Assembly: GCA_027486035.1 (NCBI GenBank)
Contig: JAIXPX010000017.1
Location: 29,904-93,903, forward strand
Length of the DNA: 64,000 bases
Source: Erythrobacteraceae bacterium
GTDB taxonomy: Bacteria; Pseudomonadota; Alphaproteobacteria; Sphingomonadales; Sphingomonadaceae
Reading direction: 5' to 3'
The translations under genes and the position numbers were made by a program. The notes beneath the pieces are model-generated. The model saw only the letters and a program-made list of their open reading frames with translations, was not told the origin of the DNA and made no database searches. How positions within the stretch are numbered: position 1 is the first letter of the stretch; every line of letters begins with the position of its first letter. Positions 9,683 through 17,480 of this stretch are shown here, in pieces.

Positions 9683-11182
9683 TTACTCCAGCCCAAGCGC
9701 GTCGAGGTTCATCGTCGCGGCATTGTAGCTGGCTTCCGCGAGCCGCCCTGCGAGCTGGGCGCGGATTGCGCCGATCTGGGCGTTGGCGGCGGTCTCCTCG
9801 CGGGCGTTGACGAGGAAGAACTCCCCCGCGCCGAGGCGGAAGCGGGTGCGTTCGGCCTGGACCATCTGGTTCGCCTGCTTGACCTCGGCATCGGCCAGGT
9901 CGGCGAGCTTCAGCGCCGCGCCGAGGTTGGCGAGAATGTTGGCGACCTCGGTGGTGATCTGATCGGCGATGCGGCGCTGGCGCAGCTCGGTCTCGCGCAG
10001 TTCGGCTTCGGCGCGCTGCAGCCGTCCCCGGGCCTCGCGGCGTTGCAGCGGCACCTTGAAGGTCAGGCCGACCACGGTATCGGTCGAATCGAAGCCCGGA
10101 CCGCCGGGGCCGATCTGCCCGAAATCGCGCGACAGCTCGACCTTGGCATCGAGCGTCGGCTGGAGGTCGTTCCGGCGCAGCGCCACGCGATTGTTGGCCC
10201 GCTCGAGCGCAAGGCGGAAGGTCTGGAGCTCGGGCCGCGTCTGGATCGTCTCGGACAGCGGGGCGGCAGCAAGCATCTCTGCCGGCGGCACGGGCTTCAT
10301 GCGGCTGAGATCGGGCAGCATCTCGCGGGTTGGCACGACCATCTGGCCGTCGGACCCGCGAAGATAGAAGCCGAGCGAGTTCGCGGCCGTCGCAAAATCA
10401 CGCCGCGCCTGTTCCAGCAGGGTGCGGCGGCGCAGCAGGTTCTGCTCGTTCTCGGTAAGGGCAATGCGGGCGCGCGCGCCTTCCCTGACCTCGCGGCCGA
10501 GCCCGATCTGGCGGGCCTCGGCGATCTCGAGCAGCTCCTCGAAAACCCGGATTTCCTCGCCGGCAGCGACCCAGCGCCAATAGGCACGCAGCGCCTCGTG
10601 CTGGACGTTCAATTGCACCAGCATCACATCGAGCCGGGCTTGGCTGGCGGCGAGCCGGGTGTCCTCGATCCCGAAGCGGCGGCTGTCGATGTCGCGGTTG
10701 CGCAGCAGCGAGAACAGCGCGCCGACCTTCGCCTCGCCCAGCGCGTTGGTGTAGTCGTAATTCTCGTAGATCGGGAAATCGCCCGAGGAGACGCGGTAGG
10801 AACCGAAAACTTCGGCGCCATAGAGCCGCAATGGCTGGCGCGCCTCGACCTTGCCGAACCCGCCCGAATAAAAGCCGGTCAGCCGGTCGTAATATTCGCC
10901 CTTGAGCATCAGGTCGAAGGCACCGTCCGCCGCCACCTGGTCGGCACGCGCGGCCGCCTCGCGCTCGAAGGCTTCGAGCACCTGCGGGAAGGTCAGCGCC
11001 GAGGAGCGCAGCACTTCCTCGGGTAGCAGCGGCCCGGTCTTTAGCGCGACGTCGAGCGGTTCGGCATTGGGGACGACATCCTGCGCGAGGGCCGGGGTGC
11101 CGACGACGGCCAGCGCGAGCCCCAGCGCAAGCGCTGCCGCGCCCGCCAAGCTCCTGCCGATGCCGCCGGATGCCGGGGTCAC
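9683..11182 (-). CDS. TolC-family outer-membrane efflux protein
   Basis: 499 residues. The signal peptide ends ALAQD at about residue 35. The body consists of two repeats rich in long amphipathic helices (for example ALRAYWRWVAAGEEIRVFEE and LEIAEARQIGLGREVREGAR), with GFDSTDTVVGLTFKVPLQRR near the second beta-barrel pair; this is the outer-membrane-factor pattern of a trimeric periplasmic tunnel. Its start overlaps the HlyD-like gene stop by 4 bases, so it is the third gene of an ABC-HlyD-TolC operon. It should provide the exit duct of a type I secretion-like assembly. Confidence 0.85.
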   Translation of the reverse strand: MTPASGGIGRSLAGAAALALGLALAVVGTPALAQDVVPNAEPLDVALKTGPLLPEEVLRSSALTFPQVLEAFEREAAARADQVAADGAFDLMLKGEYYDRLTGFYSGGFGKVEARQPLRLYGAEVFGSYRVSSGDFPIYENYDYTNALGEAKVGALFSLLRNRDIDSRRFGIEDTRLAASQARLDVMLVQLNVQHEALRAYWRWVAAGEEIRVFEELLEIAEARQIGLGREVREGARARIALTENEQNLLRRRTLLEQARRDFATAANSLGFYLRGSDGQMVVPTREMLPDLSRMKPVPPAEMLAAAPLSETIQTRPELQTFRLALERANNRVALRRNDLQPTLDAKVELSRDFGQIGPGGPGFDSTDTVVGLTFKVPLQRREARGRLQRAEAELRETELRQRRIADQITTEVANILANLGAALKLADLADAEVKQANQMVQAERTRFRLGAGEFFLVNAREETAANAQIGAIRAQLAGRLAEASYNAATMNLDALGLE

Positions 11183-12210
11183 TTGCTCTTTCCGGTGCTC
11201 GTCGCTGCCGGCAGCTGCGGCGGGAAATTGTTGAGCTGGCGCCAGATCTCGTAGCCGACGGGCACGGTTTCGAGCAGGATGAAGGCCTGCACCGCCGCGC
11301 CGAAACGCACGTAGCGCTCCTCGGGCCAGCCGTAGCCGTCGAACTCCTCTTCGGCGATCAGCACGCGGAAGCGGCCGTCGATCTGGGCCGAGCGGTCGAC
11401 GGCGATGACGCGGCCCCCGAAGGTGCCGATCGCGACCGAGGGCCAGCCCGAGAACTGCACCGCAGGCCAGCCTTCGAACTGGATCCGCGCCTTGTCGCCC
11501 GGCCGCACCAGCGCGACATCGCGTCCGTCAATGAAGATCTCCACCACCCGCACCGCACCGTCCGGCACAAAGGTCGCAAGCACGTCGCCCGCCTTGATGA
11601 AGGTCGCGGCATCGCCCGCATTGAGGCTTTGGATGAAGCCGTCGCGCGGGGCCCGCACGATCTGTTCGGACTGGCGCGCGATGCCGACGTCGGCGCGGTT
11701 GAGGTCAGCCTCCGAGGCAGCGACCTTGCCGCGCAGGTCCGCGACCTTGATCAGCGCGAGTTCGTAGTCGCGCCGGGCGGCCAGCCCTGTCTCGAACAGC
11801 TCGCGCGAGCGGCGCACATCGATCTCGGCAGTCGCCAGCGCCGATTGCGCGGCCCGCAATTGCAGCTCGATCTGGCGGCGCTCGGATTGCAGGCGCTCGA
11901 TCAGGTTGGGGTCGATGTCGGCGATGCGCACGATCGGATCGCCTTTCTTCACCGAGCTGCCGTCGCGCACGTACCATTCCACGATCCGGCCGGGCACCAG
12001 CGCGTTGATATCCTGCTTGCGCTCGTTGGGGCTGAGCGTGGTGACGACACCGGGGCCCGAGGTGGTCTGCACCCAGGGGACATAGACGAGGAACGCCACC
12101 CCGATCACGACGGCGGCGAGGATCAGGTAGAACACCACGCGCATGACCCGCGGCACGCGGATCGAGGCGAGGGTGGTGAAGTGCGCCATGTCTTCCTTCA
12201 GCGTCGCCAT
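11179..12210 (-). CDS. HlyD-family periplasmic adaptor
   Basis: 343 residues. One transmembrane helix (about 24-47) follows a short cytoplasmic N-terminus. Next come a biotinyl-lipoyl half-motif (GRIVEWYVRDGSSVKKGDPI), a coiled-coil hairpin (about 100-185, many Arg/Glu/Leu) and the returning half-motif RAPRDGFIQSLNAGDAATFI, all standard for membrane-fusion proteins. It would bridge the inner-membrane ABC protein and the TolC partner. It lies one base downstream of the ABC gene and overlaps the TolC gene. Confidence 0.88.
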   Translation of the reverse strand: MATLKEDMAHFTTLASIRVPRVMRVVFYLILAAVVIGVAFLVYVPWVQTTSGPGVVTTLSPNERKQDINALVPGRIVEWYVRDGSSVKKGDPIVRIADIDPNLIERLQSERRQIELQLRAAQSALATAEIDVRRSRELFETGLAARRDYELALIKVADLRGKVAASEADLNRADVGIARQSEQIVRAPRDGFIQSLNAGDAATFIKAGDVLATFVPDGAVRVVEIFIDGRDVALVRPGDKARIQFEGWPAVQFSGWPSVAIGTFGGRVIAVDRSAQIDGRFRVLIAEEEFDGYGWPEERYVRFGAAVQAFILLETVPVGYEIWRQLNNFPPQLPAATSTGKSK

Positions 12211-12211
12211 G

Positions 12212-13936
12212 TCACTGCCCTCCCTTCGCGCCAGACTGGTTCATCGCGGCGGCGAAGGCATCGAAGTTGTCGAAGAAGCGCTGCCGTGCGGGCTCGAGAT
12301 AGAGGAAGCGGTCGAAGCCGAGATCGGCGCGGCGGTTCGAGAAATAGATCACCGTCGTGTAGGCTTGGGCGCGCAGTTCGGCGACGGCGCGGGCGATCGG
12401 CTCGGGGTCGAGCAGGTCGAACAGGCGGCTGAGAACGAGAATGCGCGGGCGCTCGAGCAGGGCGTTGGCAAGCTTCAACTGCTGGAGCTCGACGGCTGAG
12501 AGCGGATAGCCTGTCGAGGCAAGCGGCGTGTCGAGCCCCTTGGGCAGGGTGGCGATGGTTTCGTCCAGCCCCACGGTCTCGAGCGCTGCGACCATGCGTT
12601 GCGGCGCGGTTTCGGGGCAGGACAGGCCGAGATATTCGCGCACCGTCATCTCGACGATGGTCGGGCGGTCGAGGACATGGACGTTCTTGCGCAGGTGGTG
12701 CGCCTCGATCGCCTTGATGTCGATGCCCCCCAGGGTCGCGATGCCGCCCTGCGGCAGATCGTGCAGCTTGAGCACGTTGTTGAACAGGCGCTGCACCCCG
12801 TGCTGGCTGGCGGCCGCCATGATGATCGAGCCCGAGGGGATCTCGAGATCGAACTGCACATCCTCGTGCCGCGCCCGTCCGCCGACGCCGCGCATCACGA
12901 TCGTGTGGTCCGGCCCGTCGAAGGGGTCGGCGCCCTTGGGCTGTTCCTGCTCGACCTCGTAGAACTGCGAGATCTCCTCGACCGCAGCGAAGAGGTCGTA
13001 GAAGTAGCCGAGATAGCCGCCGAGCTGCGACACGCCGGCGAAGGCGGCGGAGAGCACCAGTTCGGCGGCGACGAGCTGGCCGAGGGTCAGCTCGTTCTCG
13101 ATCACCAGCCAGCCGCCAAGGCCGAGCAGCGCGGCGCTCGCAGCGGCATACATGACGAGGAAGGTCAGCGTCTGGGAGAACAGGTGACGGAAGTGGCGCT
13201 TGCGATCGGTGATATAGGCACGGGTGTGCGCGTCGCTCTTGTCGAGCGCGTAATCGATGCGGCGCTGCGACTTGAAGAAGCCGTTCGAGTTGCCGATCGT
13301 CTCGAGCCAGGCGGCGGTGGAGTGCTTGGCGTGGCTCAGATCGACCCCGGTGCGCAGCGCCCGCGCGCCCCACACCATCCACACGATCCAGATCAGCGCG
13401 ATCATCACCAGCGTGAAGCCGAGGAAATAGGGATGGTAGAGGCTCACCAGCGTGAAGCCGACCGCGATCTGGAGCAGGGTCGTGAAACCGCCGATCATCA
13501 GGATCGGGATGGCGGTCTGGACATAGACTACGTCGAAATAGCGGTTGAACAGCGCGCTCTTCTTGGCGTCGCCGAAGAAGGGGTTCTGCGCATAGACCGA
13601 GATCAGGGTGATCTCCGCCACCATGCGCGCATAGAACCGCCGCGCGAACAGCTCCATCAGGTGAACCCGCAAGGCGTAGAGCAGGCTCGAGATCAGCAGC
13701 AGGCTGAACAGGCTCAGCGAGAGCATCACCAGCGGCGCGGTGAGCGCGGTGCTGGCGATGGTGTTGATCAGCATCTGCACCGAGATCGGCGTCGCGAGGC
13801 TCAGCAGGCTGATGCCGATCCCGTAGACGGCGGCCAGCCAGTAGAAACTCGCCTCGGGCTTCAGGATGTCGAAGAAAATCCTGAAGAACTTCACCAGCGA
13901 AATCTGAGAGCCGTAAGTTTGGCCTTCCCCTGCCAT
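12212..13936 (-). CDS. ABC exporter-like protein with degenerate nucleotide-binding domain
   Basis: 574 residues from ATG at 13936 (MAGEGQTYGS); an in-frame ATG at 14008 adds 24 non-conserved residues. Residues about 20-310 form a six-helix ABC type I exporter membrane domain. The C-terminal 230 residues align with an ABC ATPase, but each catalytic motif is replaced: Walker A reads AAASQHGVQRL (no Lys-Ser/Thr), the Q-loop position is Asp (VLDRPT), the signature is LSAVE instead of LSGGQ, Walker B is ILVLSRLFDLLD (no Asp-Glu), and the switch His is Asn (YFSNRRAD). ATP hydrolysis by this protein alone looks impossible. It heads the operon with HlyD and TolC partners, so it may pair with an active ABC half elsewhere or work without ATP turnover. 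Confidence 0.8.
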   Translation of the reverse strand: MAGEGQTYGSQISLVKFFRIFFDILKPEASFYWLAAVYGIGISLLSLATPISVQMLINTIASTALTAPLVMLSLSLFSLLLISSLLYALRVHLMELFARRFYARMVAEITLISVYAQNPFFGDAKKSALFNRYFDVVYVQTAIPILMIGGFTTLLQIAVGFTLVSLYHPYFLGFTLVMIALIWIVWMVWGARALRTGVDLSHAKHSTAAWLETIGNSNGFFKSQRRIDYALDKSDAHTRAYITDRKRHFRHLFSQTLTFLVMYAAASAALLGLGGWLVIENELTLGQLVAAELVLSAAFAGVSQLGGYLGYFYDLFAAVEEISQFYEVEQEQPKGADPFDGPDHTIVMRGVGGRARHEDVQFDLEIPSGSIIMAAASQHGVQRLFNNVLKLHDLPQGGIATLGGIDIKAIEAHHLRKNVHVLDRPTIVEMTVREYLGLSCPETAPQRMVAALETVGLDETIATLPKGLDTPLASTGYPLSAVELQQLKLANALLERPRILVLSRLFDLLDPEPIARAVAELRAQAYTTVIYFSNRRADLGFDRFLYLEPARQRFFDNFDAFAAAMNQSGAKGGQ

Positions 13937-14200: not shown

Positions 14201-15328
14201 ATGAGCGGATTTCAAGCTTCGGGCGAAAGCAGGGCAGCGCGGTTGCTGCTGGTTGGCGGGGGCCATGCCCAAGTCGCGGTTCTCGCGGATTTCGTGCAGC
14301 GGGGCGTGCCCGGCGGCGCGCGCTGCCTGCTCCTCACGCCGGAGCCTGCCTTGCGCTATTCGGGCATGGTGCCCGGCTGGCTGGCGGGACAGCATGGCAG
14401 GGATGACGGGCTGGTCGATCTTGCAGGGCTTGCCGCGCGGGCCGGGGTGGAGCTGGTGCTCGATCGCTGCATCGGCCTTGATCCCGATGCGCGGGTGGTG
14501 CGCACCGCGGGCGGCGGTCAAATCGGTTTCGACCTTGCCGCGTTCGACACGGGCGGGGAGGGGCAGGCAGCGGACCTGCTGGGCGAGGATCCGCGTCTCC
14601 TCGATGTGCGGCCTATCGATGCCCTGGTGGATCGCCTCGCCGCCCTGCCCGCGCCCGGGCGCGTGGTGGTGGCGGGGGGCGGGGCGGGGGGCGTGGAGCT
14701 TGCTTTCGGTCTGCGCAACCGCGCCGGAGCCTCGCCCGGGCAGGTGACGCTCGTCACGGGCGAGGGCGGCCTGCTCCCCGGCTTTTCGGGCGCGGTGCGG
14801 CGGCGGGTCGCAAGGGCGCTTGCGAGGCAAGCCATTGTGGTCATCCATGAGGACCTTCGCTTCACCCAAGGCGCGCTGGTCGCCGGCGTCCGCTCGCTCG
14901 AGCCCGCCGACCTCGTCATCGCCGCGCTCGGCAGTGCGGCGCCGGCATGGGTGCGCGACAGCGGCATCGCGGCGGACGCGGACGGCTTTCTGCTGGTCGA
15001 TGCGCATCACCGCTCGGTGTCGCACCCCCACGTCTTCGCCGCAGGAGACGTCGCGGCGCGTGCCGACCGGCAGCTTGCCCATTCGGGCGTTCACGCCGTG
15101 ATGGCCGGGACGGTGCTCGCCGCCAATTTGCGCGCCGCGCTGGCCGGACGGCCCCCGCCGCGCACCTATCGCCCGCGCCGCCACAGCCTCTACCTCCTCA
15201 ACACCGGCGATGGCTCCGCGATTGCCAGCTACGGCCCGCTCGCGGCGCAGGGTGCTCGCGTGCTTGCCCTCAAGCACCGCATCGACAAAGCGTGGATCGC
15301 CCGATACGCCCGCCTGACGAAGCCTTGA
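14201..15328 (+). CDS. FAD-dependent pyridine nucleotide-disulfide oxidoreductase (SelD-N-terminal-like)
   Basis: 375 residues. The Rossmann motif LLLVGGGHAQVAVL at about 15-28 and RYSGMVPGWLAG at about 57-68 match the family otherwise found fused to or next to selenide,water dikinase (Nterm_to_SelD type). A second dinucleotide motif VVVAGGGAGGVELAFGL binds NAD(P)H, and HVFAAGDVA is the C-terminal FAD contact. No paired redox cysteines are seen, so it is NDH-2/sulfide-quinone-reductase-like. No selD is in the window. The fused oxidoreductase gene starts 10 bases downstream, so they probably form an operon. Confidence 0.8.
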   Translation: MSGFQASGESRAARLLLVGGGHAQVAVLADFVQRGVPGGARCLLLTPEPALRYSGMVPGWLAGQHGRDDGLVDLAGLAARAGVELVLDRCIGLDPDARVVRTAGGGQIGFDLAAFDTGGEGQAADLLGEDPRLLDVRPIDALVDRLAALPAPGRVVVAGGGAGGVELAFGLRNRAGASPGQVTLVTGEGGLLPGFSGAVRRRVARALARQAIVVIHEDLRFTQGALVAGVRSLEPADLVIAALGSAAPAWVRDSGIAADADGFLLVDAHHRSVSHPHVFAAGDVAARADRQLAHSGVHAVMAGTVLAANLRAALAGRPPPRTYRPRRHSLYLLNTGDGSAIASYGPLAAQGARVLALKHRIDKAWIARYARLTKP

Positions 15329-15338
15329 GGGATCATTC

Positions 15339-17480
15339 TTGAAAAAGCTCGCCATCCTTGCCGCGCTTGCCGCGATCATCGCTGCCTATTTCGGTCTCGA
15401 CCTCGGGCAATATCTGACCCTTGCCGGGATCAAGGCCGGGGTGGCCGAATGGGAGGCCTTCTACGCCGCCCACCCCGCCGCCGTGATCGCCGGCTTCTTC
15501 GCGGTCTATGTCGCGGTCACCGCAGCCTCGCTGCCGGGGGCGGCGCTGATGACGCTGGCGGCGGGCGCATTGTTCGGGGTGATGACGGGGACGATCATCG
15601 TCTCCTTCGCGTCGACGCTCGGGGCGACGCTCGCCTTTCTCTCCTCGCGCTACGTGCTGCGGGACAGCATCGAGGCGCGCTTCGGAGAGCGATTGAAGGC
15701 GATCAACGCCGGGGTCGAACGCGACGGGGCCTTCTACCTCTTCACCCTGCGGATGATCCCGGCCTTCCCCTTCTTCGTCGTCAATCTCGTGATGGGCCTC
15801 ACCCGCATCCACACCTCGACCTATATGTGGGTGAGCCAGGCGGGGATGCTGCTGGGGACGGTGGTCTATGTGAACGCGGGCACGCAGCTTGCGCGGATCG
15901 AAAGCCTCTCCGGGATTGCCTCGCCGGGGGTGCTGGGCAGCTTCGTGCTGCTGGGTATCGCGCCGTGGCTCGCCAGGCTGGTGATCGGCGCGCTCCAGCG
16001 CCGCAAGGCCTATGCGGGCTTCAAGCGCCCCCGGAAGTTCGACCGCAATATGGTGGTGATCGGTGCGGGCGCGGCGGGGCTGGTCAGCGCCTATATCGCC
16101 GCAACGGTGAAGGCCAAGGTCACGCTGGTCGAGGCCAAGGACATGGGCGGCGATTGCCTCAACACCGGCTGCGTGCCGTCCAAGGCCCTGATCAAGAGCG
16201 CCAAGGTCGCCAGCATGATGCGCCACGCCGATACCTACGGCCTTGCGCCGGTGGAGCCCGAGGTGCCCTTCAAGGCGATGATCGCCCGGGTGCTGGCGGC
16301 GGTGAAGGCGATCGAGCCGAATGATTCCGTCGAGCGCTACACCGGTCTCGGGGTCGATGTGGTCAAAGGCTATGCGACCATCATCGACCCGTGGACGGTG
16401 GAGATCGCGGGCAATGACGGCACCACGCAGCGCCTCACCACCCGCAGCATCGTGATCGCCAGCGGCGCGGAGCCGGTGGTGCCGCCGATCCCCGGCATCG
16501 AGGGATCGGGCTACCTCACCAGCGAGACCATGTGGGCGGCCTTTGCCGAGATGGACGCTGCCCCGGCGTGCGTCGCGGTGCTGGGCGGCGGGCCGATCGG
16601 GTGCGAATTGTCGCAGGCGCTGGCGCGGCTCGGCTCGAAGGTCACGCTGGTCGAGATGGCCGATGCCCTGCTGGGGCGCGAGGATGCGGATGTCTCGGCG
16701 CTCGCCAAGGCGGTGCTGGAGGCGGACGGGGTGCAGGTGCTCACCGGCCACAAGGCGGTGCGGATCGAGGGGCGCACGCTGATCGCCGAACGGGCCGGGG
16801 CCGAAGTCGAGGTGCCATTCGACACGCTGATCGTCGCGGTCGGCCGCCGCGCGCGGATGACCGGCTTCGGGCTGGAGGCGCTGGGGGTCGACACCGCCAG
16901 CACCATCGTCACCGACGAATTCCTCGCCACCAAGTTCCCCAACATCGTCGCGGCCGGAGACGTCGCGGGGCCCTACCAGTTCACCCACACCGCCAGCCAC
17001 CAGGCCTGGTACGCCAGCGTCAACGCGCTGTTCGGACAGCTGCGCCGCTTCAAGGCCGATTACCGCGTGATCCCGGCGGTGACCTTCCTCGACCCCGAAT
17101 TCGCGCGCGTCGGGCTGAACGAGCGCGAGGCCGAGGAGCAGGGGATCGCGGTGGAAGTCACCCGCTACGAGTTGGACGACCTCGACCGCGCCATCGCCGA
17201 GAGCGAGACGAAGGGCTTCGTCAAGGTGCTGACCCCGGCAGGCGGCAAGGACACGATCCTGGGCGCAACCATCATCGGCGCGCACGCGGGCGAACTCATT
17301 GCCGAATATGTGCTGGCGATGAAGCACGGGATCGGCCTCGGCAAGATCCTCGGCACGATCCACGCCTATCCGACCTTCGCCGAGGCCAACAAATACGCCG
17401 CAGGCAAATGGAAGAAGGCGCACAAGCCCGAAGGCCTGCTCAAGTGGGTCGAACGCTACCACGATTGGCGGCGCGGATGA
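15339..17480 (+). CDS. TVP38/TMEM64-type membrane domain fused to a mercuric-reductase-like flavoprotein
   Basis: 713 residues with a TTG start. Residues about 1-225 are a VTT/DedA-type membrane domain with several hydrophobic helices and the GALFGVMTGTIIVSFASTLG and RMIPAFPFFVVNLVMGLTRI landmarks. From about 235 a class I disulfide oxidoreductase begins (MVVIGAGAAGLVSAYIA) with the redox pair in GGDCLNTGCVPSKAL, an NAD(P)H motif (VAVLGGGPIGCELSQAL) and the C-terminal HAYPTFAEANKYAAG with the His-Glu dyad. Its electron acceptor is unknown; the fusion suggests a membrane-tethered reductase of a lipid-soluble or transported substrate. Its stop overlaps the nucleoside transporter start by 4 bases. 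Confidence 0.88.
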   Translation: MKKLAILAALAAIIAAYFGLDLGQYLTLAGIKAGVAEWEAFYAAHPAAVIAGFFAVYVAVTAASLPGAALMTLAAGALFGVMTGTIIVSFASTLGATLAFLSSRYVLRDSIEARFGERLKAINAGVERDGAFYLFTLRMIPAFPFFVVNLVMGLTRIHTSTYMWVSQAGMLLGTVVYVNAGTQLARIESLSGIASPGVLGSFVLLGIAPWLARLVIGALQRRKAYAGFKRPRKFDRNMVVIGAGAAGLVSAYIAATVKAKVTLVEAKDMGGDCLNTGCVPSKALIKSAKVASMMRHADTYGLAPVEPEVPFKAMIARVLAAVKAIEPNDSVERYTGLGVDVVKGYATIIDPWTVEIAGNDGTTQRLTTRSIVIASGAEPVVPPIPGIEGSGYLTSETMWAAFAEMDAAPACVAVLGGGPIGCELSQALARLGSKVTLVEMADALLGREDADVSALAKAVLEADGVQVLTGHKAVRIEGRTLIAERAGAEVEVPFDTLIVAVGRRARMTGFGLEALGVDTASTIVTDEFLATKFPNIVAAGDVAGPYQFTHTASHQAWYASVNALFGQLRRFKADYRVIPAVTFLDPEFARVGLNEREAEEQGIAVEVTRYELDDLDRAIAESETKGFVKVLTPAGGKDTILGATIIGAHAGELIAEYVLAMKHGIGLGKILGTIHAYPTFAEANKYAAGKWKKAHKPEGLLKWVERYHDWRRG

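Follow-up and report, generated by a model that had tools for sequence, protein, structure and literature searches.

Conserved loss of the usual ATP motifs in a family of ABC-exporter-fold proteins encoded beside HlyD-like and TolC-like partners

An ABC exporter fold whose nucleotide motifs have all been replaced heads a three-gene operon in the window, i.e., the whole 64,000-nucleotide stretch of Erythrobacteraceae DNA analyzed here. The replacements recur throughout a family of proteins whose operon partners are retained, and a glutamate in TM6 is invariant among them. Drawing on sequence and on analogy with truncated exporters, we give a probability of about 0.4 to the whole line of reasoning that makes the protein an ATP-independent, perhaps proton-driven, homodimeric part of a tripartite exporter.

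The gene, its operon and its replaced motifs

The gene (12,212–13,936, minus strand) is an open frame of 574 amino acids plus a stop codon, and its product has the overall fold of an exporter half. The membrane domain (TMD; residues 23–330, at 12,947–13,870, minus strand), with its predicted helices, matched PF00664 (ABC_membrane) at 40.1 bits against a cut-off of 28, in keeping with the normal type I exporter membrane domain originally predicted. The NBD-like domain (residues 341–556, at 12,269–12,916, minus strand) scored 23.6 bits with PF00005 (ABC_tran), missing the curated cut-off of 25 by only 1.4 bits, and so near a miss places its descent from ABC_tran beyond doubt. In a structure prediction with a mean pLDDT of 78, this domain superposed on the TAP1 NBD (2ixe) with an rmsd of 2.8 over 235 residues, and chains of HlyB/D and PCAT1 were among the best structural matches. 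The frame is open, and the NBD fold is predicted to be kept, as had been claimed.

Immediately downstream lie genes for a 343-aa HlyD-like membrane fusion protein (11,179–12,210, minus strand; Pfam HlyD_3 above cut-off) and a 499-aa TolC/NodT-like outer membrane factor (9,683–11,182, minus strand; Pfam OEP above cut-off). The ABC gene stops 1 nt before the HlyD-like ATG, and the HlyD-like stop overlaps the GTG of the TolC-like gene. This is the spacing of a tight operon, with the ABC gene at its head as anticipated, and together the three genes have the composition of a type I secretion set. By the NCBIfam models for type I secretion, which are narrower than those of Pfam, all three proteins fell below the cut-offs; the best permease/ATPase match was TIGR03375, with 83.9 bits against a cut-off of 693.1. 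It is highly probable that the ABC-fold protein works with its HlyD-like and TolC-like partners. Upstream of the ABC gene, a Pyr_redox_2 frame (14,201–15,328) runs in the opposite orientation, and beyond it a single frame (15,339–17,480, plus strand) encodes a VTT membrane domain together with a pyridine nucleotide-disulphide oxidoreductase, dimerisation domain included.

Within the NBD-like domain, both the sequence and its alignment show Walker A replaced by AAASQHGVQRL (residues 374–384, at 12,785–12,817), the signature by LSAVE (residues 479–483, at 12,488–12,502), Walker B by ILVLSR (residues 499–504, at 12,425–12,442, in the region VLSRLFDLLD) and the switch His by N534 (12,335–12,337), all on the minus strand; the catalytic Glu is missing as well. 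The original prediction had named these four replacements correctly. It had also placed an Asp at the Q-loop Gln, and here alignment with motif-intact exporters leads to a correction, as the Gln column holds R424 and D423 precedes it (12,665–12,670, minus strand). Judged by its sequence, the protein is almost certainly incapable of hydrolyzing ATP in the usual way.

Conservation of the loss across relatives

To place the window protein among its relatives, 300 family sequences were aligned, comprising the protein itself, 202 database proteins (one of them the same protein), 80 loci from titled genomes and 17 loci from genomes within the protein's own bacterial family; L002, another ABC, and L021, which is out of frame, were left out. 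The 80 loci, those that were inspected, are the best 80 of at least 536 confirmed relatives, from at least 594 matched stretches. Neither GxxGxGK[ST] nor, after residue 330, hhhDE occurs in any of the 300 sequences, and LSGG[QE] occurs once, in a C-terminal tail. At the aligned columns, 4 of the 300 have the Walker A Lys, 5 the catalytic Glu, 2 the Q-loop Gln and none the Walker B Asp. In an aligned set of 28 family members, the A-loop Tyr (0/28), Walker A Lys (1/28), Walker B Asp (0/28) and switch His (0/28) are likewise all but gone. The switch His is present in 25/25 motif-intact exporters, a mixed set selected for intact Walker A and B and hence 25/25 at those columns by construction. These 25 are what remained of 29 candidate loci after L117 and L126 had been set aside and L112 and L114 had failed the motif regex, L112 being by its sequence an intact exporter apart from a single altered Walker A residue. 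The motif-intact exporters share 43 conserved NBD columns; 24 of these are lost in the motif-less family, and 13 new near-invariant NBD positions (at least 85% here, at most 10% in the motif-intact exporters) have appeared, including R383, K390, R424, P478, E483, K488 and D507.

The NBD-like domain has not been released from selection. Its dN/dS ranged from 0.08 to 0.22 in 12 of 13 pairs (one was incomputable), against 0.05 to 0.23 for the TMD, in pairs that share sequences and whose synonymous sites are saturated in the three most distant cases. Mean identity among the 28 diverse family sequences is 0.546 in the TMD and 0.373 in the NBD, and 72 of 308 TMD columns reach at least 90% identity. 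A control set of 21 motif-intact orthologues of the MsbA-like exporter encoded in this genome gave the reverse, 0.624 and 0.711; 20 of the orthologues were picked from the lower-identity end of the matches, and residue numbers, not structure, set the limits of TMD and NBD. A TMD more conserved than the NBD, opposite to motif-intact exporters, indicates a shift of constraint onto the membrane domain. G036 (L021), out of frame in the NBD, and G1025 (G1025:C259), split into two frames, appear to be broken copies.

The original prediction held that the loss was conserved and selected for a non-hydrolyzing role, and that close homologues with intact motifs would speak against it. Among the 120 nearest database proteins (83–100% identity) none carries GxxGxGK[ST] or hhhDE, nor does any of the 300 family sequences; the loss extends across the alignment with HlyD and TolC genes alongside, and the NBD is under purifying selection, all of which favors that proposal.

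The partner genes are just as constant. Of the 80 loci, 79 leave room for 300 bases or more, and a HlyD gene comes next in all of them; 76 leave at least 1600, and a TolC gene follows in all of those. These counts lean to near relatives because the 80 loci are the closest among at least 536. Four more distant copies (36–39% identity, same phylum) also have HlyD and TolC genes next to them, the latter partly cut by the end of the locus. Across 27 diverse loci, the ABC, HlyD and TolC genes alone recur throughout; a LysR-type gene is next, in up to 12 loci. In the fetched flanks, a LysR-type gene was found at 21 of the 80 loci (two by weak matches), often just upstream, as in L070, L082, L087 and L100, and this neighbor may hint at a small-molecule cargo. 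No recurring substrate-like gene stood out among the listed families present in at least 6 of the 27 loci (frames of at least 150 aa).

Record titles place family loci in Sphingomonadales, Parvularcula, Hyphomonadaceae, Kordiimonas, Caulobacter, Halieaceae, Woeseiaceae and Xanthomonas. The distribution is patchy: among 149 genomes of the host's bacterial family, 19 carry the gene, as do 19 of 41 genomes of relatives (its own included) and 11 of 398 genomes of a phylum sample in which the sister group described below is counted. Relatives with less than 60% identity occur on 15 plasmid records (H1–H15), counted regardless of motif state, and five of them are annotated as "ABC transporter ATP-binding protein". 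A relative is also carried by plasmid pNL2 of Novosphingobium aromaticivorans DSM 12444, as SARO_RS19820. In the copy on Sphingobium plasmid pHAL16 (L151, 1362–3914), a DUF2309 gene directly precedes the operon and a carbonic anhydrase gene lies nearby. A link to CO2 uptake through the DUF2309 gene was considered and set aside, as DUF2309 relatives occur in only 2 of the 80 other loci.

A sister group retains part of what the family has lost. It was found through L142, itself from the phylum search, and its named members are Methylobacillus, Nitrosomonas, Methylotenera and one Methylobacterium bin (mostly betaproteobacteria; P0204–P0323 and L142). Among the 120 matches listed, 116 have an intact Walker A and none has LSGG[QE]; at Walker B, 112 show hhhh-D with something other than Glu behind it, and 2 show hhhh-D-E. 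Of 19 aligned members, 16 keep the Walker B Asp, and all 19 have Thr in place of the switch His and lack the Q-loop Gln. Mean identity is again higher in the TMD (0.608) than in the NBD (0.447). At the one sister locus read far enough, that of L142 itself (L143), a HlyD gene comes next and then an OEP gene. ATP binding may persist in this group.

A 72-sequence tree, which carries a long-branch warning, separated the motif-less (28), sister (19) and motif-intact (25) sequences by supported branches (100/100, 100/99 and 100/100, respectively). Second trees were built after removing L118, L120 and L130 (long rows) and adding three outliers. The whole-protein version gave the same three groups, with L148 inside the sister group. 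The TMD-only version kept the groups as well, with the long-branch warning returning; there the motif-less group stands alone at support 78 and, joined with L150, a divergent motif-poor copy, at 98. On both whole-protein and TMD-only trees the motif-less family adjoins the sister group. A group with Walker A and without the signature, catalytic Glu or switch His suggests stepwise loss, in which hydrolysis would have gone first and nucleotide binding later, the root and direction being inferred. Elsewhere, L149 (1447–4008, G901) has lost the Walker A Lys in a different way, and its open frame has about 290 further residues ahead of the membrane domain, a part with no Pfam match. The open frame of the motif-intact exporter L130 (607–2901) begins some 130–155 residues ahead of the stretch that many relatives share; other matches have internal stops there, and the true start is probably further in.

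The TM6 glutamate and the energy source

What, then, might drive export? In the window protein, E292 lies in TM6 within GQLVAAEL (13,061–13,063, minus strand). It is kept in 300 of 300 family sequences and in none of the 25 motif-intact exporters, although the counts from the 80 loci are partly circular, as the search patterns for these included GQLVAAEL. The motif is also present in all 28 loci retrieved by searching with whole proteins instead of patterns (24 from the motif-less family and 4 from the sister group or outliers). Moreover, the form GQ[FL][VI]A[AS]E occurs in 120 of the 120 sister-group matches listed. The sister group keeps Walker A, so the appearance of E292 did not coincide with the complete loss of ATP binding.

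An acidic residue in TM6 is also what LmrA relies on. In published work, LmrA without its NBD is described as carrying out proton-coupled transport, with the TM6 glutamate E314 needed for the pH-driven part, and MsbA without its NBD as transporting on a pH gradient, less well than the whole protein (PMC2704374, PMC6155054, PMC4979069). With these precedents and an invariant E292, proton-driven export is judged most likely. The motif-less protein would then form the inner-membrane component of a predicted tripartite exporter, acting outward as a homodimer without ATP, and a proton gradient may drive export through E292. Charged residues at the old nucleotide site (R383, K390, R424, E483, K488 and D507) could clamp the two NBDs together in place of ATP. 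The original prediction had listed a scaffold, a partner of an active ABC half and a channel driven otherwise; the last fits best. More tentatively, this could be a natural ABC exporter family that turned from primary to secondary, proton-driven transport, with a living intermediate clade that binds ATP without hydrolyzing it.

It is possible, though doubtful, that the protein is instead a non-energized conduit or scaffold, in which the ABC fold anchors HlyD and TolC while cargo runs down its own gradient or is gated. The partner genes are indeed kept although the ATP motifs are gone, and conservation is lower in the NBD than in the TMD. A bare scaffold would, however, leave an invariant charged TM6 residue and the highly conserved TMD columns (72/308) unexplained; a specific channel could account for them. 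Decay or misassembly has practically no chance of being the explanation: the two broken-looking copies, G036 and G1025, are set against equal loss in 300 sequences of many organisms, low dN/dS and a conserved operon, which rule it out for the family. It is also quite unlikely that nucleotide is still bound or hydrolyzed through rebuilt, non-canonical residues. In favor of this are the new conserved basic residues around the old site (R383, K390, R424 and K488), the 1.4 bits by which ABC_tran was missed, and Pdr5, whose strongly degenerate site still matters for function and has all its motifs changed (PMC7756269). Pdr5 keeps a second, canonical site, whereas a homodimer of motif-less chains would have none, and the A-loop Tyr, Walker A Lys and Walker B Asp survive in only 0, 1 and 0 of 28 sequences.

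Another means of supplying energy would be a heterodimer, in which an active ABC exporter encoded elsewhere hydrolyzes ATP, and this is unlikely. Degenerate sites are common in heterodimeric exporters, and a composite nucleotide site pairs the Walker A and Walker B motifs from one chain with the signature from its partner (PMC7756269). With Walker A and signature both lost from one chain, each composite site lacks a half, and no complete, canonical site would form even with an active partner. The genome, itself only about 90% complete, does encode two other ABC_membrane proteins, both motif-intact. The first occurs in 148 of 149 family genomes, against 19 of 149 for the motif-less gene. The second occurs in 38 of 41 relatives, namely in 19 of the 19 with the motif-less gene, which would suit a partner, and in 19 of the 22 without it. 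Both are common in genomes lacking the gene, so neither tracks it, and they were rejected as obligate partners. In the fetched flanks, an intact fused ABC exporter was found at only 4 of the 80 loci, all of them Xanthomonas and all beyond a LysR gene rather than adjacent, and this neighbor was dismissed as well. That search used 27 intact exporters as queries, since the window protein as query misses ones like L130; at a fifth locus, L099, an intact ABC frame of 322 aa lies well away from the operon. These results, among them those of the genome-wide search for an unpaired active half that the original prediction had called for, disfavor its suggestion of an active ABC partner.

Relation to known exporters

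In the open-licence literature searched, with passages of two reviews, no description of such a motif-less ABC exporter family was found. The family itself gives a caution for annotation, in that some records named "ABC transporter ATP-binding protein" are without any usual ATP-binding motif. The HlyB-HlyD-TolC system and PCAT1 are alike in their exporter membrane domain, and the operon here likewise provides HlyD-like and TolC-like partners; unlike them, the present protein lacks Walker A and the signature as well as the catalytic Glu and the switch His. TM287/288, TmrAB, BmrCD and Pdr5 combine degenerate motifs with a kept fold, as predicted for the motif-less family, yet each keeps one canonical composite site, while the motif-less chain has lost both Walker A and signature.

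Non-pump roles are not new to this fold. CFTR, which became a channel, and the sulfonylurea receptors are ABC exporter folds with such roles, and both still bind ATP. The motif-less family may resemble them in its departure from pumping and differs from both in having lost the binding motifs. The sister group shares the TM6 motif and, in one locus, the order HlyD then OEP, and has kept Walker A.

Functional parallels are LmrA-MD and MsbA-MD, in which an ABC membrane domain works without ATP, as might be expected of the motif-less family by analogy. E314 of LmrA and E292 are both TM6 glutamates, likened by helix and residue type rather than by aligned position. Ion-driven transport by the membrane domain of an ABC exporter alone has so far been argued from these laboratory truncations, and nature seemingly ran that experiment itself, in a selected family without ATP motifs, with a fixed tripartite operon and a halfway sister clade. 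The question thereby becomes testable in environmental sphingomonads. LmrA-MD and MsbA-MD were engineered without their NBDs, while the motif-less family is natural and retains an NBD-like domain.
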